Notes under the pieces: generated by a model | The model's database searches: none | Seen by the model: only the letters and a program-made list of their open reading frames with translations | Told to the model about the DNA's origin: nothing | Made by a program: the position numbers and the translations under genes | DNA from: Subtercola boreus | Lineage (GTDB): Bacteria > Actinomycetota > Actinomycetes > Actinomycetales > Microbacteriaceae | Direction: 5' to 3' | Assembly: GCF_003399645.1 (NCBI RefSeq) | Contig: NZ_NBXD01000002.1 | Span: 310,001-374,000, forward strand | DNA: 64,000 bases | In this document: in pieces, positions 26,067 to 41,925 of the stretch | Numbering within the stretch: position 1 is the first letter of the stretch | Layout: each line of letters begins with the position of its first letter

Positions 26067-26444
26067 ATGGATGACCGAGGGCAGCTCGACGCAGCCGCAG
26101 CGGTCGTAGCGGCAGAGCTCCGGCTGCTCGACCCCGAGGTGCGGCAGGATGCCGCCGCCGTCGACGGGTTGCTCGACCCGGCGTTCCGCGAGATCGGACA
26201 GTCGGGGCGGCTGTGGTCACGGCAGGACATGGTCGAGGCGCTCGCCGACGCAGCGATGTCGGACACCCTGGGGGCACCAGTCGTGTCGCAGGCGACCGTC
26301 GAGCAGCTGGCCCCGGGCACGTACCTGCTGACCTACCTGCTCGCCAGCGGATCGGGCCTCACCCGGCGTTCCTCGATCTGGCGCGCCACCGCCGGAGGGT
26401 GGCGCTGCGTCTTCCACCAGGGGACTCGCGCCGAGGACGGCTAG
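26067..26444 (+). CDS. DUF4440 / NTF2-like small protein
   Basis: A 125-aa protein of the NTF2-like (cone-shaped barrel) superfamily, DUF4440 group. The sequence LLDPAFREIGQSGRLWSRQDMVEAL followed by the strand pattern VEQLAPGTYLLTYLL and SSIWRATAGGWRCVFHQGT is typical. Members bind small ligands or act as ketosteroid-isomerase-like enzymes. The ATG at 26067 begins the homology. Its stop codon overlaps that of the convergent lipid kinase gene (CTAG). Confidence 0.8.
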   Translation: MDDRGQLDAAAAVVAAELRLLDPEVRQDAAAVDGLLDPAFREIGQSGRLWSRQDMVEALADAAMSDTLGAPVVSQATVEQLAPGTYLLTYLLASGSGLTRRSSIWRATAGGWRCVFHQGTRAEDG

Positions 26445-27508
26445 CCGCCGAGCGCCTGCGATGCCGGGGTCGCCGGCTCGGTAAGAGCCCTGCCGCCCAG
26501 GGAGCCGCGCACGCGCAGGGCGCCCGGCTCGATCCAGGCGCGGGCGCTCAACACCTTTCCGAGGTACTCGCCGTCGATCTCGAAGTCCTGCGCCGTGCCG
26601 ACCGACAGGGTCACCGCACGGGCGCGGGCGTGCTGCACGGCGGCCGAGTCCACCGGCACCGAGCCGTCTGCCGCCGCCCGTGCGGCGGGGCGCCTCGGCA
26701 GGTAGGTGGTGTTCGTTCGCCAGAACCACTGGATCGCGCGCGCCCACTCGCCGGCACCCAGCGGGCGAAGCAGCACCACGTCGAGCAGACCGTCGTCGAT
26801 GAGGGCGCCGGGAATCATCCGGATGCCTGCCGGCAGCACCCCGCCGTTGCCGAGCACGATCGTGTGGGCCGGTGTCTCGGGCTCTGCGGTGTCGTCGAGC
26901 GAGTACGTGAGGTCGAAGCGGCGGTTGCGCACGAAGGATTCCATGATGGCCGAGACGTAGCCCGTCCAGCCGAGCGTGTCCTTGCCCCTCGGCGACGTGT
27001 TGACGACCATCTGCGCATCGACACCCATGCCGGCCATCACCGTGAAGGCTCGTTCGATCGTCTCGCCGCTGTCGAGCACGGCCTCCACCCGGCCGACGTC
27101 GACGGTGCGGATCGTGTCGCTGAAGGCCGCCCGCAGGGCCTTCCGTTCGTTGACGTACGGCAGCCCGATCACGCCGAGCGGAAGCCCGAGGGCGCGGGCG
27201 AAGAGGTTGGTCGTGCCCGACGGCAGGATGCCCAGCGGCACGGCTTGGTGGCGAAGCGCCTGGGCGACAGAGCTCACTGTGCCGTCACCGCCGGCCGCGA
27301 TCACCACGTCGGGCGCTTCGTTTAGCAGCTGGAGCGTCACGCCCTCGCCGGAGTCATTGACCGTGGTCGCCGCCCAGAGGGATGGGCCCCACGACTTCTC
27401 GGCCTCCACTGCCCTGACCATCGAGCGCAGCCGCTTGACGTCGACCTTCGTCGGGTTGTAGACGATGGCAGCGCGTGGCTGCGGCGGCGTGACCCCCGGA
27501 GTCGGCAT
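26441..27508 (-). CDS. Diacylglycerol kinase family lipid kinase
   Basis: Phosphorylates a lipid alcohol such as diacylglycerol, or here possibly alkyl-acylglycerol, with ATP. The 355-aa protein has the nucleotide motif GGDGTV at residues 73-78, PLGILPSGTTNLFARAL, and the C-terminal EIDGEYLG strand of the DagK/YegS/LCB5 fold. It lies 8 bases after the ferritin-like gene, so they share a transcript within the ether-lipid cluster. A role in returning diradylglycerol to the phospholipid pool fits the context; the true substrate is untested. Confidence 0.9.
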   Translation of the reverse strand: MPTPGVTPPQPRAAIVYNPTKVDVKRLRSMVRAVEAEKSWGPSLWAATTVNDSGEGVTLQLLNEAPDVVIAAGGDGTVSSVAQALRHQAVPLGILPSGTTNLFARALGLPLGVIGLPYVNERKALRAAFSDTIRTVDVGRVEAVLDSGETIERAFTVMAGMGVDAQMVVNTSPRGKDTLGWTGYVSAIMESFVRNRRFDLTYSLDDTAEPETPAHTIVLGNGGVLPAGIRMIPGALIDDGLLDVVLLRPLGAGEWARAIQWFWRTNTTYLPRRPAARAAADGSVPVDSAAVQHARARAVTLSVGTAQDFEIDGEYLGKVLSARAWIEPGALRVRGSLGGRALTEPATPASQALGG

Positions 27509-27516
27509 CGTGAACG

Positions 27517-28329
27517 CTAGACCGCTGCGATGCCCTGGGCGTCGAACGCATCGGCGACCACGCTGAGACCGGAGAGCCCGGGCATCTTCGCGATGTGGGC
27601 ATCGATGGCGTTGATCGCCTTGCGGCCGTCGATACCGGCGAAGATGTGGTTCATGACGTATTTGACCTCGGTCTGGTCCATGATCGTCGAGCCAACGGGC
27701 CCCCAGAACTTCCCCAGCGCGAAACGGGCGAACTTCTGGGCGAGAACACTCTTGCCGAGGCGCTCACGGGCCTGGGTCGCGTAGAACGCCACGTGCCGGG
27801 CCTCCTGCATCGCGATGCGCTTCAGCAGCTCGGCGAGCACCGGGTGACCCTCGATCTCGGCGAGGCGCTTGTAGGCGGCGACGGCCGACCACTCATTGGC
27901 GGCTCCCCAGATCATGTGCACGGCGATGAAGTCCTTGCCCACGAGGTTCGAGAGCACCGACTGCTTCACCGGGTCGATGCGATCCTTCCAACCGAGCTTG
28001 AGGCGCTTCGACTTGAGTTCGTCGAATTCGAGCTCGATGTTGTGCATGCGCAGAACGTCGGCGAGCGCCTCGCCGTGCCAGAACTCCTCGCGGTTCCACA
28101 TGGTCATGAAGCCGGTGACGTCGCGATCGCGGTGCGAGGGGGTGACGAGCATGTCGCGCATGTAGCAGACGGTGTGGTACTCCACGTCGGCCATGTAGCG
28201 GATGACCCGCAGCGTGTCGTCGGGGAGGGGATTCGTCTTGAAGTCTTCGAAGTCGAGGTCTTCCCAGGCGACGTTCTTCGACGTCTTCGTGTAGTTGTCG
28301 ATATCGAAGGCCATGGGCGCTTGAGACAC
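27517..28329 (-). CDS. Ferritin-like di-iron protein (acyl-ACP-desaturase-like), complete ligand set
   Basis: A 270-aa soluble helical-bundle protein. Its ligand pattern is that of O2-activating di-iron enzymes: Glu50, Glu82-x-x-His85 (EFWHGE), Glu146, Glu176-x-x-His179 (QEARH). Acyl-ACP desaturases, AurF-type oxygenases and ribonucleotide reductase R2 use this arrangement. The gene sits between a PlsC-like acyltransferase and a lipid kinase, in a cluster with alkyl-DHAP synthase, so an oxidase or desaturase acting on fatty acyl or alkyl-ether lipid is likely; making the plasmalogen vinyl ether is one option. The start may be GTG 28329 or ATG 28314. A paralogue lies at 33048-33923. Confidence 0.8.
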   Translation of the reverse strand: MSQAPMAFDIDNYTKTSKNVAWEDLDFEDFKTNPLPDDTLRVIRYMADVEYHTVCYMRDMLVTPSHRDRDVTGFMTMWNREEFWHGEALADVLRMHNIELEFDELKSKRLKLGWKDRIDPVKQSVLSNLVGKDFIAVHMIWGAANEWSAVAAYKRLAEIEGHPVLAELLKRIAMQEARHVAFYATQARERLGKSVLAQKFARFALGKFWGPVGSTIMDQTEVKYVMNHIFAGIDGRKAINAIDAHIAKMPGLSGLSVVADAFDAQGIAAV

Positions 28330-28347
28330 ACACGGGGGTGTGTCTCA
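28322..28347. promoter_or_regulatory. Perfect 10-bp inverted repeat over the start of the di-iron gene
   Basis: TGAGACACAC (28322-28331) and GTGTGTCTCA (28338-28347) flank six bases. In mRNA this would be a stem-loop whose 3' arm contains the GTG start; an AGGAGG lies just upstream of it. As DNA it also has the look of a TetR-type operator. Which level it acts on cannot be told. Confidence 0.55.
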
Positions 28348-28449
28348 TCCTCCTGTTTCTGAAATGCCGGATGCTGATGGTGGGCTGTACTGACTATTCT
28401 GCTGTGTCTGGCTGAAAAATTCTGCCGCGCCGGTCGAACATCAGGGCTC

Positions 28450-29139
28450 TCACCGCCACACCCGCCGCCTGGCGTGGCCGGCAGGTGTTGCTGTGGCCTG
28501 CCAGACGCGGCGCCAGTCGGCCGCCGCGCCGTCCTCCCGGGGGAGTTCGGTCTGGTCTGCCTGCGACCGCAGGGCTCCGTACCAGCCGAGTGTCTCCTCG
28601 GCCAGCCCGGCGGTGATCGCTTTCACGATGCTCCCGGTCACTGCAGAGAGTTCGGCGCCCCGCCCCGCGTGGATTGGTCGCGCGAACACGACGGCGACCC
28701 GTGGGCGGCCGGGCAGGGCCGACGTGCGCCACGGCGGCAGCGCTCGGAACGTGCCCTGCAGCGTCACCGGCACGATTGGCACGCCGGTGCGGATACCCAG
28801 CGCCGCTGCCCCGAGATCGAACTCTCCGAGCGTTCCGTCGTCGGGGTGCGTGCGCTCGGCGAAGAGCAGAACGCTTGTCCCGCTGGCGAGCAGAGCCGCC
28901 AGGCGGGTCGCCGAACGAAGGCTCAGGGCCCGGTCGAGAAGGCCCCGGATGCCTCGCCGGGGGTCGACCGCCACAGACACCAGCCGCGGAGCGACGTCGG
29001 CCAGAGCATCCCTCACCAGCGCCTCGTCGAGGGCGCTCGGGTGGTTCGCCACGAAGATGAACGGACCCTTCGCCTCCGTGACGTACTCGAGCCCGTGCAC
29101 CGAGGGGGTGACCGCGAGCCGCATGGCGAGACGGGGCAT
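28450..29139 (-). CDS. Divergent PlsC-type acyltransferase
   Basis: Acyl transfer to a glycerol-phosphate-type lipid, 229 aa. The HX4D catalytic motif is intact (NHPSALD, His33, Asp38), but the phosphate-binding FPEGTR motif is changed to FAERTH, losing the Gly and Arg. The protein may thus use an unphosphorylated or unusual acceptor. It overlaps the LarA-like gene stop by 4 bases (ATGA). The C-terminal 40 residues are Arg/Ala-rich. It is one of two acyltransferases in the ether-lipid region. Confidence 0.78.
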   Translation of the reverse strand: MPRLAMRLAVTPSVHGLEYVTEAKGPFIFVANHPSALDEALVRDALADVAPRLVSVAVDPRRGIRGLLDRALSLRSATRLAALLASGTSVLLFAERTHPDDGTLGEFDLGAAALGIRTGVPIVPVTLQGTFRALPPWRTSALPGRPRVAVVFARPIHAGRGAELSAVTGSIVKAITAGLAEETLGWYGALRSQADQTELPREDGAAADWRRVWQATATPAGHARRRVWR

Positions 29140-30701
29140 CAGCTCACCTCGGAGATGCTCACCGGTGCTCCGTGAACATAGGTGATCGACGGATGAAGGC
29201 CCACCGAGTCCGAGGCCATCTCGAGGGCGTCGGTCAGCGTCGTCGCCGACTTGAAGCCCAGCCGACGGGTCGATTCATGGTCGCCGCCGACGAAGATGAC
29301 CTCGCCGAGGTGCTCGATCGCGGGCGCCGCCGAGTACCAGGCGTGGAACGGGTGCAGCGCGTGGTTCGCGTAACTGGTCTGGTAGACGTGCCGGTACCAC
29401 GGGTCGGCGGCGAACTTCTCCTCGAAGTCGGTCGAGATGGCCGCCGGATCGGTGCCCCGGCTCAGCACCTCTGCGAAGAAGTCGATGTAGGCGGGGTCGT
29501 ACAGCGGGTGGAACCACGGGGTCAGCGGGTGGTAGAAGATCGCGGTGCCGCCGGCGCGAACGACGGGTTCGGCGGCCTGGCCGTTGAAGATCTGGCCGAG
29601 ACCGAGGGCGGCTGCTGTCACCGGGTTGAGGCTCGACCCGATCGAGCCGGGGTTCGGAATACCGAACAGCGCGACATCGGCGGGGTTGTCGAACTGGCCG
29701 ACCTGCTGCTGGGCCAGAAAGGCCTCGGTGAGCGGATGCACGGAGCTTGGTCGCCCCGCAACCACCGACGTGACCCCGTAGCCGACCCCGGAGACCTGTG
29801 CCAGACCGACACGGGCTCGCTTGGGCAGGATGCGCGTGGCGGCCTGCAGCCCGGCGGAGAGGGCGCGGTCGGTGATGCTCCACTCCCGCTCGCGTTTGCT
29901 GAGGAACGCGGAGGCCGGGCCGGTGGGCTCGGGCGTGAGGGTGACGTCGACCGTGAACACGCGGGCACGCTCGCCGATGGAGTCGACGAGGTCGTCGAAC
30001 GGGTCTCGGGCCGTCGAACCGGCCCGGTCGGTGCCGGCCCCGCCGCGTGCGGCGAAGGCACCACGGGCCCTGGCCGTCCGAGCACCGATCAGCTTGGTCG
30101 CGACCGCTGCCGCCCCTTCGTTGCCGACCGCTGTGGCCAGCCGCACCGAGATCACGAGGTCGCTCGACGCGACCCGCCCGTTGACCTCGATCGGGGTTCC
30201 GTCGGCGAGTTCACCGACGCTCACGAGGGCTTCGTCTTCTGCGTCGTGGCTGCGCACATGATCCGGAGCGAACGACGCGTAGACCCGCTCGCCGAGCACC
30301 CGCTGCAGGTCGTGCGCGGTGAGCCGGCGCCGGAGGCCGGTGGCCGCGATCAGCTCGACATCGTCGACACCGGCGGCGGCCGCACGCTCGAGCACATGTT
30401 CGATGACGCGCTGCCGAACATCCGGAGCCGTACGGCTCGTGATCGGCTGCGAGAGGTCTTCGAACACGATCGTCACGCGGGAACCGCGCGCCAACAGCAC
30501 ACCGAGCGGCTCGGAATCGACGGGCGCATCGAGGGCGTGCTCGATGGCCGCATCCAGCGACGGGATGCCCGGCAGCGCGTCGGGCGGGTAGAGCACGCTC
30601 GTCTCGAAGGGAAGCCGCTCGAGCAGCACCTTCTCGCCCTGGAAGACGACGAGGGGCGGGGTCTGGGCATCGACGCTCAGAACGAAGCCTGGTCTACTCA
30701 T
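29139..30701 (-). CDS. LarA-like (DUF2088) protein with altered active site
   Basis: A 520-aa protein of the lactate-racemase LarA superfamily, longer than LarA itself (about 425 aa). N-terminal DUF2088 features are VTIVFEDLSQPITSRTAPDVRQ and ELIAATGLRRRLTAHDL. In LarA the motif is ATGxHR; here the His is Arg124. The segment around the Lys that binds the nickel-pincer cofactor reads AVATKLIG, so Lys203 may correspond, but the usual nearby His is absent. It overlaps the fatty acyl reductase gene by 8 bases. Lactate racemase activity is unlikely; its role in the lipid cluster is unknown. No lar cofactor genes are in the window. Confidence 0.75.
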   Translation of the reverse strand: MSRPGFVLSVDAQTPPLVVFQGEKVLLERLPFETSVLYPPDALPGIPSLDAAIEHALDAPVDSEPLGVLLARGSRVTIVFEDLSQPITSRTAPDVRQRVIEHVLERAAAAGVDDVELIAATGLRRRLTAHDLQRVLGERVYASFAPDHVRSHDAEDEALVSVGELADGTPIEVNGRVASSDLVISVRLATAVGNEGAAAVATKLIGARTARARGAFAARGGAGTDRAGSTARDPFDDLVDSIGERARVFTVDVTLTPEPTGPASAFLSKREREWSITDRALSAGLQAATRILPKRARVGLAQVSGVGYGVTSVVAGRPSSVHPLTEAFLAQQQVGQFDNPADVALFGIPNPGSIGSSLNPVTAAALGLGQIFNGQAAEPVVRAGGTAIFYHPLTPWFHPLYDPAYIDFFAEVLSRGTDPAAISTDFEEKFAADPWYRHVYQTSYANHALHPFHAWYSAAPAIEHLGEVIFVGGDHESTRRLGFKSATTLTDALEMASDSVGLHPSITYVHGAPVSISEVS

Positions 30702-33051
30702 GAGTGCTGCTTTCCGTGGGTCGTGAGGTGGTCGTGTCGCCGCGCAGCAGCTCGCTGATGGTCTCGATGCGGCTGTGGTTGTGGTCGCTCCACTGGTGGA
30801 TGCGCCAGTGCTTCGTCGTGGCGTGCTGAAAGAGAGCGGCGTCGGGGTTGACCGCCTGCGGATTGCCCGCGAGCTCGAGCCAGGCGCGGTCGGCGATGCT
30901 GTCACCGTAGGCGTACGACTTCGCCAGGTCGATGCCCTCCCGCACGGCATAGAGCCGCAACCAGGCGGCGCGCGCTTCGTCGACGAGCGGCGGCTTGGAG
31001 AGGTGGCCCGTCCAGATGCCGTTGTCGGCGTGCATGTGGCTCGAGACGACGTCGTCGAAAAGCGTGACGAAGGGCTCGACGAGCACGTCGATCGCTCCGG
31101 TGACGAGCACGGTCCTGTGGCCCGCCTCGCGGTGCTTGCGAATCTGGCGCACGGCCTCGGGACGGATGCGCTGCAGCAGCACGTCACCGACTGTGTCGTG
31201 GATCAGCTCGCGGAGCGCCTGCTCATCGACGCCCTCATAGCGCCGGTAGAACGTGCGGATGAACTCGCCGCGGTCGCGCCGGTCGGCCGCGATGTAGCGG
31301 GGCAGCGAGCTGAACAGGTTCGCCAGCTCCTTCGGCCACTTCGACCTGTCGAGGCTGGCGAGGCGCACCCAGAGGTACTGCTCGATGATGTTCGACGCGA
31401 GAACGGTGCCCTCGAGGTCGAAGATCGCGGCAGCATCCGGGTTGACGGGAAGCGGCTTCTCCTTCTGCACCTTCGCCCGGGGGCGCGAACTGAACGTGCG
31501 CATCAGCGTCGTGACGGCCGGGAAGTGCACCTCCTGCAGGTAGTCGTCCCAGTCGATCTCGGTGGCATCGAATCCGTACGTCTGGCGGGCAGAAGGCGGC
31601 AGCTGGTCGTTCAGAGCCGCCGTGCGGGAGTCGTCGTAGATGATCTCGGCCTGCGTGTAGTTCTGGTACAGATCGCTGTACGCGCGCAGCAGTTCGAGGT
31701 CGGTCTGGCGGGCCGAGGCCTGCCGCATGAACGTGCGGGTGGTCTTCGTGGAGGGCAGGCGAAGCAGGGTGCGCTGCAGCAGCTGGTTCGTGCGCTCGCC
31801 GGTGCGGAGGCTCCGGGCGATCGCCCGGGCGCCCGGAAAGTCCCAGTAGGGCGTGCGGATGTGGCCCCGCTGGTCATCCGGGATCGGATTCGCCCGAAAG
31901 TACTTCAGCACGTTCTCGTAGATCTCGCGGAAGGTCAGCGGGTTACGGCCGCCGGAGGAGAGGTGGTAGTACTTCGGGTCGGAGGCGGCCGGTGGGTTCG
32001 CGGCCACCGCGAGCGTCGCGTTCACCACGATGTCGACGGGGATGATGTCGAGGATGCTGTCGGGCAGCCCGGGAAACTCGGGAACGAGGCCCCGGCCGTA
32101 GGCGATGATGAGCGGATCGGCCACCTTGAAGCCGTCGATCCAGCCCGGGAACGGGTGCTTCAGCGCACTCTCGATGATGGCGGGTCGCACCACAGACAGG
32201 CGGTGGCCGTTGCCGGCCCACAGCTCTTCGGCGACGCGCTCGCTCATCGACTTGGTGAACGAGTACACGTCGGCCCAGCCGACGCTCTGCGCGCGCGTGC
32301 GGCCGTAGTCGACGAGCCGCTTCGTGACCCACTCGGTGCGGCCGACCTCTGCGGCGATGGCGACGGCGTGCGGGCCGACCTTGCCGTTGTCGAGCTTCGC
32401 GTCGGCGATCAGCTTGCGCAGAACCTCGGGGCGCCGGGAGGAGGCCTCGACCGTCGCCCGGGCGGAGAGGGCCGCAGCCATCTCGTCGCGCCACTGGATG
32501 GAGTGCTTCAGGCTCTCCTCAACGACCGTGCCTTTGTTGACGCCGCCGACGTAGGCCGTCGAGACGTGCACGACGTGCGGATCGCTGCCGGTGGCGAGCA
32601 GGGCCTCATAGAGGCCGACCGCACCACCGACGTTCGTCTTGAACGCATCGTCGATCGGCGGGTCGAACGAGACGGTCGACGCGCTGTGGATCAGCACATC
32701 GAGGTCGGCAGGGAGGCCGGCGACCGACCCCATGCTCGACTCGATGACACTGATGCGCTCCGTCATCGCGCGGTCGACCTCCTCTTGCCCCACGCGCTCG
32801 CGCCACTTCGAGAACACCGGCTTGCGCAGCAGGCTCTTCAGGCGGGCCTGGCCGGTGAGCGAACCCTTCGGCCTGATCAGCAGCGTCATGCGGGTCGTCG
32901 GGTAGTCGGCGAGGAGCTTCTCGAGGATGGCCTGTCCCACGAAGCCTGTCGCGCCGGTCAGCATGATGTGCTGGCTCTCGAGGGGAGAGAAGGCCGACAG
33001 GGCGCCTGGCTCTGCGGCCCCGGTGTCGGGCGCGGTGTCGGGCGCGGTCAC
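30694..33051 (-). CDS. Fatty acyl reductase fused to a HAD-superfamily hydrolase
   Basis: A 785-aa fusion. Residues 25-515 are a NAD(P)H-dependent fatty acyl reductase of the extended SDR type: nucleotide motif LTGATGFVGQ (31-40), catalytic YSFTK (Tyr263, Lys267), then a C-terminal FAR domain. It would reduce acyl-CoA or acyl-ACP to fatty alcohol. Residues 540-770 are a HAD-IB hydrolase: motif I IFDLEGT, motif II VTGAIDV, motif III GDSIADRAW. Motif I has Glu where most phosphatases have Asp at the +2 position. Fatty alcohol is the second substrate of the alkyl-DHAP synthase encoded nearby. It overlaps its neighbours by 4 and 8 bases. Confidence 0.88.
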   Translation of the reverse strand: MTAPDTAPDTGAAEPGALSAFSPLESQHIMLTGATGFVGQAILEKLLADYPTTRMTLLIRPKGSLTGQARLKSLLRKPVFSKWRERVGQEEVDRAMTERISVIESSMGSVAGLPADLDVLIHSASTVSFDPPIDDAFKTNVGGAVGLYEALLATGSDPHVVHVSTAYVGGVNKGTVVEESLKHSIQWRDEMAAALSARATVEASSRRPEVLRKLIADAKLDNGKVGPHAVAIAAEVGRTEWVTKRLVDYGRTRAQSVGWADVYSFTKSMSERVAEELWAGNGHRLSVVRPAIIESALKHPFPGWIDGFKVADPLIIAYGRGLVPEFPGLPDSILDIIPVDIVVNATLAVAANPPAASDPKYYHLSSGGRNPLTFREIYENVLKYFRANPIPDDQRGHIRTPYWDFPGARAIARSLRTGERTNQLLQRTLLRLPSTKTTRTFMRQASARQTDLELLRAYSDLYQNYTQAEIIYDDSRTAALNDQLPPSARQTYGFDATEIDWDDYLQEVHFPAVTTLMRTFSSRPRAKVQKEKPLPVNPDAAAIFDLEGTVLASNIIEQYLWVRLASLDRSKWPKELANLFSSLPRYIAADRRDRGEFIRTFYRRYEGVDEQALRELIHDTVGDVLLQRIRPEAVRQIRKHREAGHRTVLVTGAIDVLVEPFVTLFDDVVSSHMHADNGIWTGHLSKPPLVDEARAAWLRLYAVREGIDLAKSYAYGDSIADRAWLELAGNPQAVNPDAALFQHATTKHWRIHQWSDHNHSRIETISELLRGDTTTSRPTESSTHE

Positions 33052-33923
33052 GCGGTGGCCTTCACGCCGTAGCGCCGGGCGGCCCGCGACATCACGGCGA
33101 GGCCCCGGAGGCCCGGCAGCGAATCGACGACGCTGTCGATCCGAGCGATGCCGGCGTGCCCTTCGGCATCACTGAACAGGTTCGTCATCATCAATCGGGT
33201 CTCCTGGATCGGTTGCTCGTGCGTGCCCGTCGGCGCCCACGACCGCTTGAGCGACGACCGGGTGAGCGTGCGAGCCGACACCGATTCTTCCAGTCTCCTC
33301 AGGCTTTCGCCCGCAAAAAAGTGCAAGTGGCGATCCCGAAGCAGCTGGAAGCCGTTCAGAACCTCCTCGAGCGCCGGGTTCGGGTCGTGCAGGGCGAGCT
33401 GGGAGTACGTCACCCGGCTCACCAATTCGTCGATGTAGCCCCGCGTCACGTGGATGGAGATGAAGTCCTCGCCGATCAGGTTCGACCGCAGGGCCGTGAC
33501 GATCGGCGAGACGCGGTCGATCGCTTCGCGTGCGAAACGGATGACCCGTGGCCGGCTGCGAATGGCCGCGGGCGTGAAGTCCGGGTGGGCGTTCAGGATG
33601 CGATCGAAGGCATCCGCGATCCAGAACTTCTCGTACGCCCAGGTGGCGAGAAAGGCCGTGAGCCGGGCGTCCTTGTGGCTCGGGGTCACCAGAACGTCGC
33701 GCATGTGATGCATGGTGAAGTCTTCGAGGTCACGCAGATAGTCCAGTGCCATGAGCGTCCGGTTGCTGAGCGGATGCTCGGCGAACGCCTCCAGCGGCAG
33801 GGTCTTCTCATGGCTGCCCGCCGCCGTGCGCGTGTACTCGCGAATGTCGAAGTCGTCGGTCACGGGGGGCCTTCCATCGGGTGCGGGCAAAGGTGAGAAT
33901 TCATAGAACGGTGCGTCTGTCAT
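33048..33923 (-). CDS. Ferritin-like paralogue lacking most iron ligands
   Basis: A 291-aa homologue of the di-iron protein at 27517-28329; both share MRDxLVTPSHxD and the same helix pattern. Here the ligand positions have changed: EFWH has become KFWI (Lys99, Ile102) and QEARH has become LRDRH (Arg196), while Glu166 and His199 remain. It is therefore unlikely to hold a di-iron centre and may be a non-catalytic partner or scaffold. It is the first gene of the minus-strand unit, and its ATG is only 27 bases from the divergent SDR start. The paired arrangement suggests a hetero-oligomer with the active paralogue. Confidence 0.78.
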   Translation of the reverse strand: MTDAPFYEFSPLPAPDGRPPVTDDFDIREYTRTAAGSHEKTLPLEAFAEHPLSNRTLMALDYLRDLEDFTMHHMRDVLVTPSHKDARLTAFLATWAYEKFWIADAFDRILNAHPDFTPAAIRSRPRVIRFAREAIDRVSPIVTALRSNLIGEDFISIHVTRGYIDELVSRVTYSQLALHDPNPALEEVLNGFQLLRDRHLHFFAGESLRRLEESVSARTLTRSSLKRSWAPTGTHEQPIQETRLMMTNLFSDAEGHAGIARIDSVVDSLPGLRGLAVMSRAARRYGVKATA

Positions 33924-33937
33924 TCGTCAGGGTCCCG

Positions 33938-33943
33938 TATCGT
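33938..33943 (+). promoter_or_regulatory. -10 hexamer of a probable leaderless promoter (SDR operon)
   Basis: TATCGT fits TANNNT and ends 7 bases before the ATG at 33951. Because the divergent gene starts at 33923, promoters in the two directions must overlap or lie in each other's coding regions. Confidence 0.5.
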
Positions 33944-33950
33944 GATTGCC

Positions 33951-34721
33951 ATGGTTCTGGCAATGGTCACCGGCGGCACATCGGGAATCGGTGCAGCCTT
34001 CGCGCGCGCACTGGCGAACAGGGGCGACGATCTGGTCATCGTCGCCCGAGACCAGGCCAGACTCGACGAGACCGCCCTGGCGCTCCGCACAGAGTACGGG
34101 GTGGAGGTCGAGATCATCTCGGCCGACCTCGCCGACCGCGCTGATGTGGTGCGGGTCGCCGCGCGGCTGTCAGACGCCACCCGGCCGGTCGGCCTGCTCG
34201 TGAACAACGCGGGGTTCGGAGTGCACACCTCGTTGCTCGCCGAAGACACGACGCCGCACGAGCGTGCGCTCGACGTCATGGTGCGCGCCGTGCTGATGCT
34301 GGGCGCGGCCGCCGGGCGCGCGATGCGCACGCGCGGAACAGGCAGCATCATCAATGTCTCCAGCGTCGCCGGGTTCATCACCATGGGCAGCTATTCTGCC
34401 GTCAAGGCGTGGGTCGCGTCGTACAGCCAGGGGCTGGCCGTCGAGCTTGCGGGCTCGGGCGTGCGGGTGACGACCCTGTGTCCCGGCTGGGTTCGCACAG
34501 AGTTCCACTCGCGGGCGGGCATCCGCGAGTCGTCCATCCCCGAGTTCCTCTGGGTCGACGTCGACGAGCTCGTCGCGGCGTGCCTGGCCGACGCGGCGAA
34601 GGGCAAGGTCATGTCTGTTCCTTCGCGTCGGTTCAAGTTTCTGATGTTCGTGATCAAGCACGCGCCCCGGGGCGGAATCCGCTGGGCGTCGGGCCGCATC
34701 TCGTCGAGTCGCAAAGACTAA
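33951..34721 (+). CDS. Short-chain dehydrogenase, candidate alkyl/acyl-DHAP reductase
   Basis: NAD(P)H-dependent reductase, 256 aa, classical SDR. Visible are VTGGTSGIG (residues 6-14), NNAG (85-88), the catalytic Ser in INVSSVAG, Tyr148 and Lys152 (SYSAVK), and PGWVRTEF. Mammalian and yeast acyl/alkyl-DHAP reductases are SDRs of this type, and the gene is in one operon with an acyltransferase and an alkyl-DHAP synthase, so reduction of the 1-alkyl-DHAP ketone is the natural role. That is inference from context. The ATG at 33951 is preferred over the GTG at 33942, which overlaps the -10 hexamer. Confidence 0.85.
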   Translation: MVLAMVTGGTSGIGAAFARALANRGDDLVIVARDQARLDETALALRTEYGVEVEIISADLADRADVVRVAARLSDATRPVGLLVNNAGFGVHTSLLAEDTTPHERALDVMVRAVLMLGAAAGRAMRTRGTGSIINVSSVAGFITMGSYSAVKAWVASYSQGLAVELAGSGVRVTTLCPGWVRTEFHSRAGIRESSIPEFLWVDVDELVAACLADAAKGKVMSVPSRRFKFLMFVIKHAPRGGIRWASGRISSSRKD

Positions 34722-34766
34722 ATCGTACCGGCCCGCCCGTCGTTTCGGTTCCTCAGGGAGTGTGGG

Positions 34767-34772
34767 TACGCT
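34767..34772 (+). promoter_or_regulatory. -10 hexamer of a probable leaderless promoter (acyltransferase)
   Basis: TACGCT fits TANNNT and ends 6 bases before the GTG at 34779, which has no ribosome binding site. It suggests an internal promoter for the acyltransferase and alkyl-DHAP synthase. Confidence 0.5.
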
Positions 34773-34778
34773 GGGCAG

Positions 34779-35552
34779 GTGGAATTCGGCAACAGATATA
34801 CGTCGCGGGCCCAGGCAGGTGCACGCTTCGTCGCCCAGCGCCTGCTGCTGAAACCTGTCATCTGGTCGATGGTGAAGGTGCACATCACGGGCAGGCCCCT
34901 TCTCAAAGAGGTCAAGGGTCCGTTCATCGTCGTGGCGAACCATTCGAGCCACCTGGATGCCCCGCTCATTCTCGGCTCTCTGCCGAGCCGCCTCTCGCGC
35001 TACCTGGCAGCGGCCGCCGCCGCCGACTACTTCTTCGACGTGTGGTGGAGAAAGGGCCTGACGGCTCTGTTCTTCAATGCCTTCCCGGTCGACCGCAGCG
35101 CGAACGCCAAGTCGAACGGCTTCACCGGCAAGCTGCTCAAGGCCGGTGTTCCGCTCCTGGTCTTCCCCGAGGGCACCCGGTCGAAAGACGGCACGATCGC
35201 CCCGTTCAAGGCCGGTGCCGCAGCGCTGTGCATGAAGGCGAACATCCCGTGCATCCCGATGGCCCTCGTCGGCGCGACACAGGCGATGCCCCGCGGCCGC
35301 AACTGGCCCGTTCCCGGCCGACCGCCGGTGCGCGTCTCCTTCGGCGAGCCGCTCCGCGCGGCCGAGGGTGAGACCGTCATCGAGTTCAACGAACGCATCG
35401 AGAAGGTCGTGCGGGGGATGCATGCCGCCGAGTTGGCGCTGTACCTCACCGACACCGGCGCGAACATCCGCAACCACCCCACCATCGGCACCACCTCCGG
35501 CACTACCGCCACGGGCGACTCCGACGAACACCCCCGTGAAGGAGCCGCATGA
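34779..35552 (+). CDS. 1-acyl-glycerol-3-phosphate acyltransferase (PlsC family)
   Basis: Transfers an acyl chain to a glycerol-phosphate or DHAP-type acceptor at the membrane. The 257-aa protein has intact motifs: NHSSHLD (His55, Asp60), the NAFPVDRS segment, FPEGTRS near residue 130 and the late PCIPMAL. A hydrophobic segment precedes the first motif. Its stop overlaps the alkyl-DHAP synthase start (ATGA), so the two are co-translated: it may make acyl-DHAP, the substrate of that enzyme, or acylate position 2 of the ether lipid. Start GTG 34779. Confidence 0.88.
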   Translation: MEFGNRYTSRAQAGARFVAQRLLLKPVIWSMVKVHITGRPLLKEVKGPFIVVANHSSHLDAPLILGSLPSRLSRYLAAAAAADYFFDVWWRKGLTALFFNAFPVDRSANAKSNGFTGKLLKAGVPLLVFPEGTRSKDGTIAPFKAGAAALCMKANIPCIPMALVGATQAMPRGRNWPVPGRPPVRVSFGEPLRAAEGETVIEFNERIEKVVRGMHAAELALYLTDTGANIRNHPTIGTTSGTTATGDSDEHPREGAA

Positions 35553-37219
35553 CCGACGTCAAGCACATGAAATGGTGGGGCTGGGGCGTCGAGGGTGTGG
35601 GTTTCCACCACGAAGACAAACCCGGTTTCGCACCATTCGTGGTCAATGCCGTCGGAATCGACGTCTGGCGCGAATCCGTGCCGCCCGTCGACTTCTCCGA
35701 GCTGAACGTTCCGGCCTCTCAGGCTCCGGATGAGTTGTTCGGGGCCCTCACGACGATCGTCGGCCCCGAGTATGCAACGAAAGACGACGAAGAGCGGGTC
35801 GTGCACACGTACGGCAAGAGCATCCGGGATCTGATCCGTGTTCGCGCGAGCGACTTCCCCCGCACGCCCGACGTCGTGGTCTACCCGGCCGACGAGAGCG
35901 CCGTTCAGCGCATCGTCGACCTGGCCGTGGCTTCTGACGCCGTCATCATCCCGTTCGGTGGCGGCAGCAACATCGTCGGTTCGCTCGAGCCCATGCCCGC
36001 CGAGACCCGGCCCGTCATCTCGCTCGACATGGGGCGGATGTCGCGGGTGCTCGACATCGACGAGTACTCCGGTCTCGCGGTCATCCAGGCCGGTGTGCTC
36101 GGGCCCGACATGGAAGAGCAGCTGCAGGCCCGCGGGTGGACCATGGGGCACCAGCCCGACAGCTTCACCCACTCGACCCTCGGCGGCTGGATCGCGACCC
36201 GCTCCTCGGGCATGCAGAGCGACAAGTACGGCGACATCGCCGAGATCACGAAGGGCCTGCGGGTCGTGCAGCCCGGCAAGCTGCTGGTCGTTCGGCCCAT
36301 CCCGTCGTCGGCCACCGGGCCGAGCGTGCGGGAGGCCATCCTCGGCAGTGAGGGACGTCTCGGCGTCATCACCGAGGCGACCGTACAGGTGCACCGCCTG
36401 CCCGAGAAGCGCGAGATCATCGGCTACCTCTTCCGCGACTGGGAGTCGGGCCTCGCCGCCATGCACGACATCAACAAGAGCGATGCCACCCCCTCCATCA
36501 CGAGGGTCTCGGATGCCCGGGAGACCGCGTTCTCCTTCTCCACGTCGAAGGCATCGCACGGCATCAGCGGCCAGGTGCAGAAGGCTCTCTTCGCTTTTCT
36601 GCAGAAGCGCGGCTGGAACCTCGACGAGGTCTGCCTCTCGTTCATCGGCTACGAGGGGTCGCCCGCGAACGTGTCCTACCAGAAGGGCATCGTCGGCGGC
36701 ATCCTGAAGAAGCACGGCGCGATCACACTGGGCAAGGGCCCGGGCGCTCTGTACGACCAGAAGAAGTTCGACACCCCGTACCTGCGAGACTTCCTGCTCG
36801 ACCGGGGCGCTGCCGCAGACGTGTCGGAGACGGCGGCACCGTGGTCGCGCCTCAAGCCGCTCTACGACAACGTCTTCGCGGCCGCGAACAAGGCCTACGC
36901 CTCGCTCGGTGAAAGCGGCTGGATCATGTGCCACCTCTCGCACTCGATGCACTCGGGAGCCTGCCTGTACTTCACGTTCGCGTTCACCCACGACGGGGTC
37001 GACCCGATCGCGCAGTACGACGTCGTGAAATCGGCCATCCAGCAGGCCTTCCTCGACTCGGGCGGAACGCTCTCACACCACCACAGCGTGGGTGTGGAGC
37101 ACTCGCAGTGGACGGAAGAGGACATCTCCGTGGCCGGGGCCGACCTCATCCAGGGGATGTTCACGGCGGTCGACCCGGGCAAGCACCTCAACCCGGGAAA
37201 GATCCTGCGGCGCAACTGA
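35549..37219 (+). CDS. Alkyldihydroxyacetonephosphate synthase (ether-lipid forming), FAD-dependent
   Basis: Exchanges the acyl chain of acyl-DHAP for a fatty alcohol, creating the glycerol ether bond. The 556-aa protein matches the mammalian enzyme along its length: N-terminal MKWWGWG motif, FAD site IPFGGGSNIVG (134-144), STLGGWIATRSSGM (209-222), GSEGRLGVITEA, SGACLYFTFAF with Tyr474 at the position of the essential mammalian Tyr578, and the HHH triplet (510-512) in GGTLSHHHSVG. A plain glycolate/lactate oxidase of the same FAD family would lack the N-terminal motif and HHH triplet. It is last in its operon, just before a strong terminator. Peroxisomal targeting is naturally absent. Confidence 0.93.
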   Translation: MTDVKHMKWWGWGVEGVGFHHEDKPGFAPFVVNAVGIDVWRESVPPVDFSELNVPASQAPDELFGALTTIVGPEYATKDDEERVVHTYGKSIRDLIRVRASDFPRTPDVVVYPADESAVQRIVDLAVASDAVIIPFGGGSNIVGSLEPMPAETRPVISLDMGRMSRVLDIDEYSGLAVIQAGVLGPDMEEQLQARGWTMGHQPDSFTHSTLGGWIATRSSGMQSDKYGDIAEITKGLRVVQPGKLLVVRPIPSSATGPSVREAILGSEGRLGVITEATVQVHRLPEKREIIGYLFRDWESGLAAMHDINKSDATPSITRVSDARETAFSFSTSKASHGISGQVQKALFAFLQKRGWNLDEVCLSFIGYEGSPANVSYQKGIVGGILKKHGAITLGKGPGALYDQKKFDTPYLRDFLLDRGAAADVSETAAPWSRLKPLYDNVFAAANKAYASLGESGWIMCHLSHSMHSGACLYFTFAFTHDGVDPIAQYDVVKSAIQQAFLDSGGTLSHHHSVGVEHSQWTEEDISVAGADLIQGMFTAVDPGKHLNPGKILRRN

Positions 37220-37371: not shown

Positions 37372-39015
37372 ATGCCCCATTCGTCTCGAACCTCTCATCG
37401 ACTCCTCCGGGCCATCACGGTAGTCGCCGTTGTCGGTGCGTTCGGCGCGGTAGGTATCTTCTCGCTCGAAACAGCCACCGCGGCTCTACCTGTTGCGGGT
37501 GAGACAGTGATGACGAGCGTCGACACCTCATCTCCGCCTGCAAGGGCCAACGCGGGTGCTGGGCAGAGTTCGCTCTCGTCGGATGGTCGCTATGTAGCCT
37601 TTTCGTCCGCGTCGAGCAACCTGGTCTCAGTCGGCAATCACGCAACAACACAGATCTACAAGCGCGATCTGCTCACCGGAGCCACGGAGTTGGTCAGCGT
37701 CGTGCCTGCCGGCGCAGATTCGGGTGACAAGCCGTCGACAGACCCGTCGATCTCAGCCGATGGGCGATTCGTGGCATTCACCTCGAGAGCAACCAACCTC
37801 ACGCTTCCGGCCGACCTCACCAACTCCTTCTCGCAGGTTTACGTGAGGGACACGACAGGAGGGCTGACCAGAAAACTGAGCCTGACGCCGGGTCTGGTTC
37901 TCGGGGGCAACGAGAATTCCAATACGCCCTCGATCTCGGCTGACGGCTCCCTCGTGGCATTCCAATCCGGGGCCAACAACCTCGTCAACGGTCTGACCCC
38001 AACGACCTATCAGGTGTACCTGGCGAGCAATGCGGTCGACCCGATGGTCAGGCTGGTCAGCGCCCGAAACGGTACAGCCAGCGGGCTCCCGGACGGAGCG
38101 GCGGTACAGCCGTCGATTTCCGGTGATGGCGCGACGGTGGTGTTCGTGTCCGGCTCGAGCGATCTAGCCGGTGTCTCGGGCGCCGGAAACGGCCAAATCT
38201 ACGCTCGAAGTCTGGCCACCGCTACGACCAGACTTCTGACGCTCGACCGATCGAATGCGTCTGTCGCCGGAGACAACGCGTCAGGTGAACCGGTTGTTTC
38301 GTTTGACGGCTCGCGAGTGGCCTATACCTCCAAAGCGAGCAACCTTGTTCCCCAGCCGCTCGGGTCCGCCACTCAGATCCTCCTGTTCGACCGAGCGACA
38401 GGGCAGAACTCACTCGTCAGTGCCGCACTCGTCAGCGGCAACGGCGCGAGTGGCGAATCGAAGCAACCATCGATTTCAGCCGACGGGCAGAAGGTCGTCT
38501 TTCCTTCCACACCGGGAAACCTGAGCAGCACTCCCGCCAATGGCTTCGAGCAGGTCTTCCTCCGTGATCTCGTCACGGCGACAACCAGGATGGTGAGTAC
38601 CCTTCCTGGCCTGCCGATATCAGGATGCCTGGAGGACTGCTTCGATGCGTCGCTGTCTGCCGACGCGAGATTCGTTGCCTTCACGTCTAATTCACCAGGC
38701 CTCTCCGCCACTCCCGCGACCGGGGGCTTTCTCCAAACGTACGTTCGTTCTCTCGTTGCCGAGGAGCCGACGCCGACACCAAGCGCCACCGCGCCCATGC
38801 CGCCGACCGGGGGCACAGTCACACCCGTGGCGACACAGGAGGCGGTTGTGGCCGGTCAGGGCGGATCGGGCCCCACAAGGGGTCGGCTGGCATCTACCGG
38901 TGTCTCGCCGATGCAGATCCTGGCCGCAGGCCTGGGTGGTGCGATGTTGGCGCTTGTCGGGGGATCAGTTCTCTACGGCTCCGGGCACGTTCGTAGCCGG
39001 AGAAGCCGAGCCTAG
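37372..39015 (+). CDS. Wall-anchored seven-bladed beta-propeller protein with LASTG signal
   Basis: A secreted 547-aa surface protein. Residues 1-38 form a signal peptide ending ATAALP. The body contains seven copies of a TolB/PD40-like blade motif (S-x-DGRYVAFSSASSNLV and variants), which predicts a seven-bladed propeller. A Pro/Thr linker leads to LASTG (506-510), a hydrophobic span and the basic tail RSRRSRA: a complete cell-wall sorting signal of the LAXTG kind used by class E sortases. The protein is a paralogue of the product at 40129-41925. Codon use is less GC-extreme than its neighbours. The ligand is unknown. Confidence 0.88.
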   Translation: MPHSSRTSHRLLRAITVVAVVGAFGAVGIFSLETATAALPVAGETVMTSVDTSSPPARANAGAGQSSLSSDGRYVAFSSASSNLVSVGNHATTQIYKRDLLTGATELVSVVPAGADSGDKPSTDPSISADGRFVAFTSRATNLTLPADLTNSFSQVYVRDTTGGLTRKLSLTPGLVLGGNENSNTPSISADGSLVAFQSGANNLVNGLTPTTYQVYLASNAVDPMVRLVSARNGTASGLPDGAAVQPSISGDGATVVFVSGSSDLAGVSGAGNGQIYARSLATATTRLLTLDRSNASVAGDNASGEPVVSFDGSRVAYTSKASNLVPQPLGSATQILLFDRATGQNSLVSAALVSGNGASGESKQPSISADGQKVVFPSTPGNLSSTPANGFEQVFLRDLVTATTRMVSTLPGLPISGCLEDCFDASLSADARFVAFTSNSPGLSATPATGGFLQTYVRSLVAEEPTPTPSATAPMPPTGGTVTPVATQEAVVAGQGGSGPTRGRLASTGVSPMQILAAGLGGAMLALVGGSVLYGSGHVRSRRSRA

Positions 39016-40128: not shown

Positions 40129-41925
40129 ATGCCCCACCTTGCTCTCCCCCGCCCCCGCTCGGCCGTCGCGCTCGGCGTCGCCGCTCTCGCGCTGGGCGCA
40201 GCGGGACTTCTCGCTTCCGGGTCGGCGTTCGCCGCACTGCCGGCGCCCGACACCACGGCGATGGTGAGTGTCACCCCACTCGTGCCGTCGACCGCGGGCA
40301 ACAACATCTCTAATGAGGTAAGCGTCTCCGGTGACGGAAGGTTCGTGGCATTCACCTCCCTCGCCGATAACCTGGTGGGCATCGGAAGTCACGACAAGAG
40401 CCAGGTCTACAAGCGAGACCTGCTGACCGGAACCACAACTCTGGTTAGCGCCGCCCTCATCGGCGTTGATTCGGGGACCGATGACTCGACGGATCCATCG
40501 ATCTCGGCCGACGGACGGTACGTATCGTTCACATCCATGGCCCTTAACCTTGGCCCCTCCGACGACCCACGAAACGTGCACAACCAGATCTTCGTTCGGG
40601 ACACGCTTCTCGGTACGACGCGTGAGTTGAGTCTGATTCCTGGGGGGCTCACTGGCGGCGACGACGATTCCACGAGTTCCTCGATCTCCGCCGACGGTTC
40701 AAAGGTCGCCTTCCAGTCTGCGGCCACAGATCTTCTCGTGGGAGTCACCACGACCGACACGCAGGTCTACCTCGCTCCGAACGTGGCCGACCCCGTCATT
40801 CAGGCGGTGAGTCTCCGGGACGGCGCCTCGTTGCGTCTCCCTGACGACGATTCACTCCAGCCCGCGATCTCGGGAGACGGCAACACTGTCGCGTTCGTGT
40901 CTGCGGCCAGCAATCTGGCAGCTGTTCCCGGCAACGGTAGTACTCAGGTCTACACCCGCACCCTCTCGACGTCGACGACCAAGCTTCTGAGCTTCACCAG
41001 TACCGACAAGACGATGGCTGCGCACAACATCTCCGCTGGCCCCTCGGTTTCCTTCGACGGCAGTCGTGTCGCCTACCAGTCCAAGGCGGCTGACCTCATA
41101 CCAGAGAGCGCGGGTATCGCCACCCAGGTCATTGTCTTCGACCGGAGTCTTGACGCCAACTCCCTCGTCAGCTTCAACCGGGCGAACACTGGTGCCGGCA
41201 CCGGTATTTCGGGCCAGCCTTCAATCAGTGCTGACGGCAACGCCGTAGCCTTCGCGTCCCTCTCCGACCTCACCGCTGTTCCCGGCGGTGGACTGTCGCA
41301 GGTCTATCGGCGCGATCTCCGCACAAAGACCACGACCATCGTCAGCGTCCAGGCCGGCACCGCGCTCGCGGCAGGCACCCGGGATTCTCTGGCACCGGCC
41401 CTCTCCGGTGACGGAAACTTCGTCGGGTTCACCTCGAGCGCCCCCTCGCTGACGGACATCGCCACTCGTCCCATTCAGACGCAGACGTACCTGCGCGCGG
41501 CGGGTGCCGCTGCTCCGCCCACCGCACCGGCTACTCCGACGGCGACAACCACCCCGGCGCCGCCTGCGACGGGTACCCCGGGTACCGGTGGGAGCACGGG
41601 CTCTGGGCAGGGCGGCTCCGGGTCGGGCGGGTCCGGCTCGGGCGGCGCCGGTGGGTCCGGCAGCGGTCACCTCGCGTCCACAGGGATGAGCCAGGCACCG
41701 ATCATGGCGGCCGGGGTGAGTGCGGCAGTGCTGGCGCTGGTCGGCGGGTCGATCCTGTTCGGTGCCCGAGCGGCCAGGCGTCGGAGGCTGGCGCTGGGTT
41801 CCGCAGGTGGCTCTGGCTCGGTAGGTGGCGCTGACGCGGCGGGTGTGGCCGAGTCGATCGGCGACTCCGGGCCCACGCCATCACCCCGCTCCACCGAGCA
41901 CCCCACGACCGGGGCGGACGAATAG
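40129..41925 (+). CDS. Wall-anchored seven-bladed beta-propeller protein with LASTG signal and cytoplasmic tail
   Basis: A 598-aa paralogue of the product at 37372-39015. A signal peptide (ending near SAFAALPAP) is followed by seven blade motifs such as SGDGRFVAFTSLADNLV and SADGSKVAFQSAATDLL. A Pro/Thr stretch and a Gly/Ser-rich spacer then reach LASTG (515-519), the hydrophobic span and RRRR. Unlike normal sorting signals it continues for about 45 more Gly/Ser/Pro/Asp-rich residues after the arginines. That tail would be removed by sortase cleavage or would keep the uncleaved protein in the membrane. Function unknown; surface recognition or wall structure is likely. Confidence 0.88.
   Translation: MPHLALPRPRSAVALGVAALALGAAGLLASGSAFAALPAPDTTAMVSVTPLVPSTAGNNISNEVSVSGDGRFVAFTSLADNLVGIGSHDKSQVYKRDLLTGTTTLVSAALIGVDSGTDDSTDPSISADGRYVSFTSMALNLGPSDDPRNVHNQIFVRDTLLGTTRELSLIPGGLTGGDDDSTSSSISADGSKVAFQSAATDLLVGVTTTDTQVYLAPNVADPVIQAVSLRDGASLRLPDDDSLQPAISGDGNTVAFVSAASNLAAVPGNGSTQVYTRTLSTSTTKLLSFTSTDKTMAAHNISAGPSVSFDGSRVAYQSKAADLIPESAGIATQVIVFDRSLDANSLVSFNRANTGAGTGISGQPSISADGNAVAFASLSDLTAVPGGGLSQVYRRDLRTKTTTIVSVQAGTALAAGTRDSLAPALSGDGNFVGFTSSAPSLTDIATRPIQTQTYLRAAGAAAPPTAPATPTATTTPAPPATGTPGTGGSTGSGQGGSGSGGSGSGGAGGSGSGHLASTGMSQAPIMAAGVSAAVLALVGGSILFGARAARRRRLALGSAGGSGSVGGADAAGVAESIGDSGPTPSPRSTEHPTTGADE

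Follow-up and report, generated by a model that had tools for sequence, protein, structure and literature searches.

Dimethylacetals (DMAs) are a mark of vinyl ethers, and the question raised by the locus described here is whether it holds the genes behind the DMAs of Subtercola, an aerobic soil bacterium. The locus consists of two divergent operons in a window of 64,000 nucleotides (the whole stretch of Subtercola boreus DNA that was analyzed; positions 310001-374000 of contig 2, G000:C2, in a 3.67-Mb draft genome, 98% complete). It encodes an alkyl-dihydroxyacetone phosphate (alkyl-DHAP) synthase, AGPS, along with two ferritin-like proteins for which we coined the names FerA and FerB in this analysis. 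Our analysis favors an aerobic route to plasmalogens in which FerA acts as the vinyl-ether desaturase, a reading to which we give a probability of about 0.6.

An initial sequence-only reading of this DNA had pointed to 1,1-dimethoxyalkanes in Subtercola, and the literature documents them. Published records of Subtercola acetals go back to 2000 (Mannisto et al., cited in PMC7472656); four species of the genus contain DMAs, with i-16:0 DMA at 6.9-17.0% (PMC5945732), and for Subtercola boreus and S. frigoramans confirmation by gas chromatography-mass spectrometry is reported (GC-MS; PMC7472656). S. vilae DB165, with 17% i-16:0 DMA (PMC5945732), holds the full cluster in its genome (locus L142). 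Agreia has low DMA and Frondihabitans no DMA but 14:0 2-OH (PMC5945732), 15:0 anteiso aldehyde/DMA is present in Frigoribacterium adelgis and F. faeni and not in two other species (PMC12823222), and Kineococcus rubinsiae has a DMA, identified by GC-MS, that was labelled 14:0 2-OH by MIDI (PMC7472656). We found DMA reports only for Subtercola, Agreia (low), K. rubinsiae and Frigoribacterium. Within the open-licence literature, no paper naming genes for the Subtercola acetals was found; in the S. vilae genome paper (PMC6518244), a term search for acetal, DMA, plasmalogen, desaturase and ether came back empty, and a study that screened Black Sea genomes, Actinobacteria among them, for Agps homologues names no desaturase in the excerpt available (PMC11868695).

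Alkyl-DHAP synthase and the conserved six-gene core

The best match of the AGPS product in the PDB was the Dictyostelium ADPS (2uuu; E 3.8e-114, covering most of its length), and mammalian AGPS matched at 1.5e-81; the next families, D-lactate dehydrogenase and glycolate oxidase, reached 3e-18 at best. Its HHH triplet, which we take to be the catalytic active-site motif, lies at residues 510-512, and SHHH is kept in all 25 relatives checked (59 found). On these scores, and with HHH present, a glycolate or hydroxyacid oxidase identity, the alternative that the sequence-only reading had set against its own assignment, is ruled out. The gene product is thus a convincing alkyl-DHAP synthase, predicted from its sequence to exchange alkyl for acyl on acyl-DHAP.

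A scan for FerA in named genomes gave 237 relatives, and the counts out of 80 given below refer to the best 80 loci. Six genes, encoding a fatty acyl reductase (FAR) fused to a HAD hydrolase, AGPS, a short-chain dehydrogenase/reductase (SDR), the acyltransferase PlsC2, FerA and FerB, occur all together in 61 of these 80, so their grouping is not a matter of chance. AGPS is cut by a contig end in two of the core loci (L156 and L174), and the second of the two ferritin-like genes has a better score against FerA than against FerB in two loci of Ruania. The core-bearing genera include Subtercola, Labedella, Herbiconiux, Salinibacterium, Rhodoglobus, Glaciihabitans, Agreia, Galbitalea, Amnibacterium, Ruania and Phytoactinopolyspora. 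The sequence-only reading had joined nine genes in one biosynthesis cluster, and this stands for the core. The other three fall outside it: a LarA-like gene is present in 9/80 loci (Subtercola, Labedella and one metagenome-assembled genome, MAG), and the acyltransferase PlsC1 and a diacylglycerol (DAG) kinase directly after FerA in 8/80 each (all Subtercola or Labedella). Because they are found in so few loci, these three are local additions.

The six core genes, with none of the three additions, are also carried by the linear 2.35-Mb plasmid NZ_CP109481.1 of Streptomyces sp. NBC_01450 (L272, 5592-17690). Among 72,556 plasmid records, FerA matched (E up to 1e-10) in this one alone, and the single AGPS match above 60% identity fell at the same site. 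The module is flanked on the FerA side by an IS240-type DDE transposase gene, at a distance of about 0.4 kb, and on the AGPS side by an rve/HTH_21 gene, about 2 kb away. The presence of transposase genes on both sides suggests horizontal transfer, and transfer as a set is strong evidence that the six genes are a functional unit. Judged from sequence, an AGPS-based aerobic ether-lipid pathway is very probable and, given the dimethylacetals, plasmalogen is its likely product.

In such a pathway, FAR would reduce iso or anteiso acyl-coenzyme A or acyl-acyl carrier protein (acyl-ACP) to a fatty alcohol, a PlsC enzyme would provide acyl-DHAP, and AGPS would replace the acyl group of acyl-DHAP by the fatty alcohol; SDR would then convert alkyl-DHAP to 1-alkyl-glycerol-3-phosphate, and a PlsC would add the second chain. 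FerA, with O2 and two electrons, would dehydrogenate the alkyl chain at C1'-C2' to form the vinyl ether, and FerB would serve as its non-catalytic partner where present. The sequence data show the gene content, the families of AGPS and FAR, the conserved ligands, the conservation and common transfer of the six genes and the lack of a match to known vinyl-ether enzymes; in which order the steps run, what PlsC2, SDR and HAD do and which reaction FerA carries out are inferred, and the dimethylacetals are taken from the literature. The named phospholipids of S. vilae are phosphatidylglycerol (PG) and diphosphatidylglycerol (DPG), reported with unidentified glycolipids, phospholipids and other lipids (PMC5945732), and not phosphatidylethanolamine (PE); the desaturase would therefore use a different head group from animal PEDS1, or would act at a stage that precedes head-group addition.

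The logic of the animal pathway (FAR1, GNPAT, AGPS, PexRAP/AGNPR and PEDS1/TMEM189) is shared, with a FAR, an acyltransferase, an AGPS, a reductase and an O2-dependent last step. In contrast to that pathway, the Subtercola genes form one bacterial operon pair, PG and DPG are reported instead of PE, no PF10520 match is present, and the soluble di-iron FerA/FerB is proposed in place of the membrane desaturase. Myxococcus xanthus likewise has AGPS, FAR, acyltransferase, HAD and dehydrogenase genes (elbA-E and MXAN_1676-1674) and makes aerobic plasmalogens, from iso-branched chains; there, however, the vinyl ether is formed by CarF, an enzyme of narrow range, the main route runs via ElbD, and the excerpt available names no ferritin-like protein (PMC9131029).

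FerA as a predicted soluble di-iron protein and FerB as its paralogue

FerA and FerB are paralogues (33-34% identity within the window). The FerA of the window is 94% identical to that of Subtercola boreus and groups with Subtercola in the tree. Its Pfam matches, to Rubrerythrin and FA_desaturase_2, are both sub-threshold; against PF03405 it scores 16.9 bits, below the cut-off of 22.7, and the same model matches 44 of 51 FerA family members at E up to 0.01. FerB had no match in Pfam or NCBIfam, and a PADLOC scan of both proteins gave none either. The sequence-only reading had listed both as ferritin-like proteins. FerA keeps six di-iron ligands: E82, H85, E146, E176 and H179 are present in 51/51 aligned sequences and E50 in 50 (with one gap), and all six are also intact in the Streptomyces plasmid FerA. 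FerB, on the other hand, lacks three of them, with E82 replaced by K, H85 by I, V, L or M, and E176 by K, R or D, each in 45/45 sequences. Since these ligands are replaced throughout, FerB is unlikely to be a second oxidase and is, from its sequence, probably a non-catalytic partner of FerA.

The AlphaFold models of both proteins are confident and all-helical (mean predicted local distance difference test, pLDDT, 87 for FerA and 90 for FerB). The top Foldseek matches of the FerA model are soluble acyl-ACP desaturases (template modeling score, TM, 0.53-0.61 by query length; best E 1.1e-3), followed by R2-like ligand-binding oxidases; VlmB is also among the matches. In a profile search, DesA2 of Mycobacterium tuberculosis (Mtb) was the best natural protein (1.8e-6), ranked after a designed helix bundle. 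FerA shares with the acyl-ACP desaturases (FA_desaturase_2; castor delta-9 and Mtb DesA2) the ligand pattern E, ExxH, E, ExxH, yet it differs from them in its low identity (14-18% in the fold matches), its sub-cut-off Pfam score and its proposed substrate. FerA is the best candidate for the vinyl-ether desaturase, and we lean toward assigning it that role.

Known vinyl-ether enzymes and the distribution of FerA

The sequence-only reading held that neither a CarF/PEDS1-type desaturase nor the anaerobic PlsA/PlsR route is present, and the profile searches of the genome agree. PF10520 (Lipid_desat, CarF/PEDS1-type) was found in 0/199 genomes of the family, including the one under study, in a search in which no control gave a match; the model does match 18/396 genomes of the phylum. 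Since these genomes are not tied to AGPS (1/18), PF10520 is a broad marker. PF09989, which we take to be the signature domain of PlsA/PlsR, was found in 0/13 genomes, again including this one (controls positive, 4/14). PF01869 had also been tried as a PlsA/PlsR marker and was replaced by PF09989, being too broad: it matched in 13/13 genomes, three of them without any match over the cut-off. PlsA/PlsR produces bacterial vinyl ethers by direct reduction of the sn-1 ester (PMC9702350).

Across the 199 family genomes, which overlap with the named loci, cluster-type AGPS is present in 55, FerA in 59 and both in 53 (Fisher p 8e-39, for genomes that are related and not independent). The two genomes with AGPS and no FerA are both drafts, G113, in which the contig ends inside FAR, and G101. 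FerA is present without cluster-type AGPS in six (G025, G057, G079, G102, G107 and G142), of which G107 is a draft whose 18-kb contig carries SDR, FAR and FerAB, and G142 has a distant AGPS. Of the 19/80 named loci that lack the complete core, two sit on short contigs and were set aside; AGPS was sought in the genomes of the remaining 17, with three further genomes as positive controls (all positive). Eight of the 17 (seven Jiangella and Naasia) have a cluster-type AGPS elsewhere in the genome, adjoined by FAR-HAD, SDR and PlsC2 in the 4/4 loci read; Jiangella as a case of FerA without the pathway was thus a wrong reading. FerB is not at the FerA locus in Jiangella. By eye, the conserved neighbors of the lone FerA in Leifsonia, Agromyces and Naasia or in Jiangella include no lipid genes.

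Several results weigh against FerA as part of a plasmalogen pathway. G101 (85% complete) holds the other core genes and neither FerA nor FerB, and five genomes (G025, G102, G057, G079 and G142) carry FerA and FerB without FAR and without cluster-type AGPS. An Actinopolymorpha genome with FerA has a distant AGPS only, and no AGPS was found at E 1e-40 in eight FerA genomes (Haloactinopolyspora, one MAG, two Leifsonia and four Agromyces); these sets share members, G102 being probably L. flava, and the FerA ligands are intact in the aligned members that lack cluster-type AGPS. Distant relatives of FerA in the phylum show no association with AGPS (near-full-length AGPS in 2/20, versus 70/396 overall). 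The fold matches of FerA are weak, with none at E <0.001, and those of FerB weaker still (best E 0.17). Lastly, the negative results on known vinyl-ether enzymes cover PF10520 and PF09989; other desaturase families, for example membrane PF00487 elsewhere in the genome, were not searched. The main doubts on the role of FerA come from Leifsonia, Agromyces and others, which keep it while lacking this AGPS, and from a wider family unlinked to AGPS.

One alternative keeps the ether-lipid pathway but has FerA, alone or with FerB, desaturate or hydroxylate another acyl or alkyl position (for instance to anteiso-15:1), with the vinyl ether formed by an enzyme encoded elsewhere. The FerAB pairs with intact ligands in Leifsonia and Agromyces, relatives that lack FAR as well, the unlinked distant relatives, and the fold matches to enzymes acting on acyl chains would all fit it. 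On the FerA tree, however, the Leifsonia and Agromyces sequences form one clade with those of G025, G057, G079 and G142 (100/98), nested in a supported clade with the cluster-bearing genera (100/99). At least three changes are needed to account for the rows without AGPS, and three suffice (70 rows with AGPS and 13 without were scored; 18 distant rows and two cut contigs were excluded), so that these cases look secondary. The movement of the six genes as one unit also argues against it, as does the published DMA fraction, which requires some vinyl-ether enzyme when the known types were not found; we therefore regard this alternative as rather unlikely. It is improbable that the cell makes saturated alkyl ethers only and that FerA acts in their turnover, for example as an O2-dependent cleaving oxygenase releasing aldehydes that become dimethylacetals on methanolysis. 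Free aldehydes do yield DMA as well, di-iron oxygenases of related fold exist (the R2-like oxidases and VlmB among the FerA matches), and FerA can lie genetically apart from the core; yet i-16:0 DMA alone makes up 7-17% of the profile (PMC5945732), which is high for a turnover product, and a degradative enzyme is not expected in 61/80 synthesis loci. We consider it very improbable that substrate drift has given the AGPS homologue a different function and that the cluster makes, with FAR, a wax ester or secondary metabolite. AGPS-type homologues are widespread, being near full-length in 70/396 phylum genomes, and their functions are, to our knowledge, mostly unproven. Against drift stand the end-to-end match to a proven ADPS, the SHHH motif kept in the cluster AGPS proteins checked, the co-transfer with FAR, SDR and PlsC, and the DMA chemotype.

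Under the plasmalogen reading, the cluster provides candidate genes for the Subtercola acetals and, possibly, a soluble substitute for the membrane enzyme. In its widest form the proposal has about an even chance of being correct: FerA, with its dead partner FerB, would be a third, independently evolved vinyl-ether-forming enzyme, soluble and di-iron, acting on non-PE lipids in Microbacteriaceae, Ruania, Jiangellaceae and a plasmid-bearing Streptomyces, and the six genes would make up a module that can be transferred and would account genetically for the dimethylacetals of Subtercola and Agreia. The cluster predicts plasmalogens in many genera, in which MIDI may have labelled acetals as 2-hydroxy acids, as in Kineococcus (PMC7472656).

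The ether-lipid link holds for the close FerA clade and not for the wider FerA family. The distant relatives (L119-L138) are 28-45% identical and scattered across the phylum, with few shared neighbors and no AGPS link, and apparently represent an uncharacterized di-iron family.

Gene layout, accessory enzymes and neighboring genes

All the named genes of the cluster are intact reading frames (Table 1), and the two divergent units and gene families described by the sequence-only reading are borne out, for the two ferritin-like proteins only weakly by profile. The minus-strand operon runs FerB-FAR/HAD-LarA-PlsC1-FerA-DAG kinase and the plus-strand operon SDR-PlsC2-AGPS, with overlaps of 1-8 bases at four joints (FerB/FAR, FAR/LarA, LarA/PlsC1 and PlsC2/AGPS). 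Since homologues begin near MAFDID and FDIRE, the true starts of FerA and FerB probably lie downstream of the longest-frame starts, at the ATG at 28314 and the GTG at 33863, respectively.

Table 1. Genes of the cluster at 26441-37219 of the window.
Gene	Positions	Strand	Set	Matches and candidate role
AGPS/ADPS (alkyl-DHAP synthase), 556 aa	35549..37219	+	core	PF01565, PF02913; PDB 2uuu match
PlsC2 acyltransferase	34779..35552	+	core	PF01553 2.5e-22; candidate DHAP or sn-2 acyltransferase
SDR	33942..34721	+	core	PF00106 2.7e-40; candidate alkyl-DHAP reductase
FerB	33048..33923	-	core in most loci	FerA paralogue without metal ligands
FAR-HAD fusion	30694..33051	-	core	FAR PF07993 2.4e-45; HAD PF12710 4.4e-34
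LarA-like protein	29139..30701	-	accessory	PF09861 1.6e-26
PlsC1 acyltransferase	28450..29139	-	accessory	PF01553 3.9e-10
FerA	27517..28329	-	core	di-iron ferritin-like; candidate vinyl-ether desaturase
YegS/DAG-kinase-family lipid kinase	26441..27508	-	accessory	PF00781 1.2e-17

In the fusion protein, the FAR half spans residues ~1-520, with residues 23-513 matching a fatty acyl-CoA reductase (PDB 7eoz, E 4e-45), and the C-terminal HAD-IB hydrolase spans ~541-738; the latter is possibly a lipid-phosphate phosphatase. SDR scores 158 bits against the NCBIfam mycolate reductase model, under its 380-bit cut-off, and the LarA-like protein 491 bits against LarAH14/15/16, under the 740 cut-off. The nickel-insertion maturase LarC (PF01969) was found in 0/8 genomes searched (controls positive, 6/14), which weakens a role with the NPN cofactor for the LarA-like protein; a cofactor-independent role is possible. 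The gene is kept beside FAR, PlsC and FerA in Subtercola, Labedella and a MAG locus (L170), although LarC was not found.

Other AGPS contexts were also seen in the phylum. Three actinobacterial loci (L067, L075 and L242) carry a second AGPS type, 34-36% identical to that of the window, which adjoins a DAG-kinase-like gene, a pair that we take to resemble the mycobacterial Rv2251-Rv2252 arrangement. In two genomes of another family (G532 and G575; L231 and L232), an AGPS 59% identical to that of the window has only a PlsC relative seen nearby, and the phylum searches list no FerA or PF10520 match for either genome; this pathway might produce saturated alkyl ethers only. Finally, the cluster of the window is adjoined at 37372-39015 and 40129-41925 by genes for a pair of related proteins that contain repeated SISADGRYVAFTS-like blocks, look TolB/WD40-like by eye and have a probable C-terminal membrane segment.

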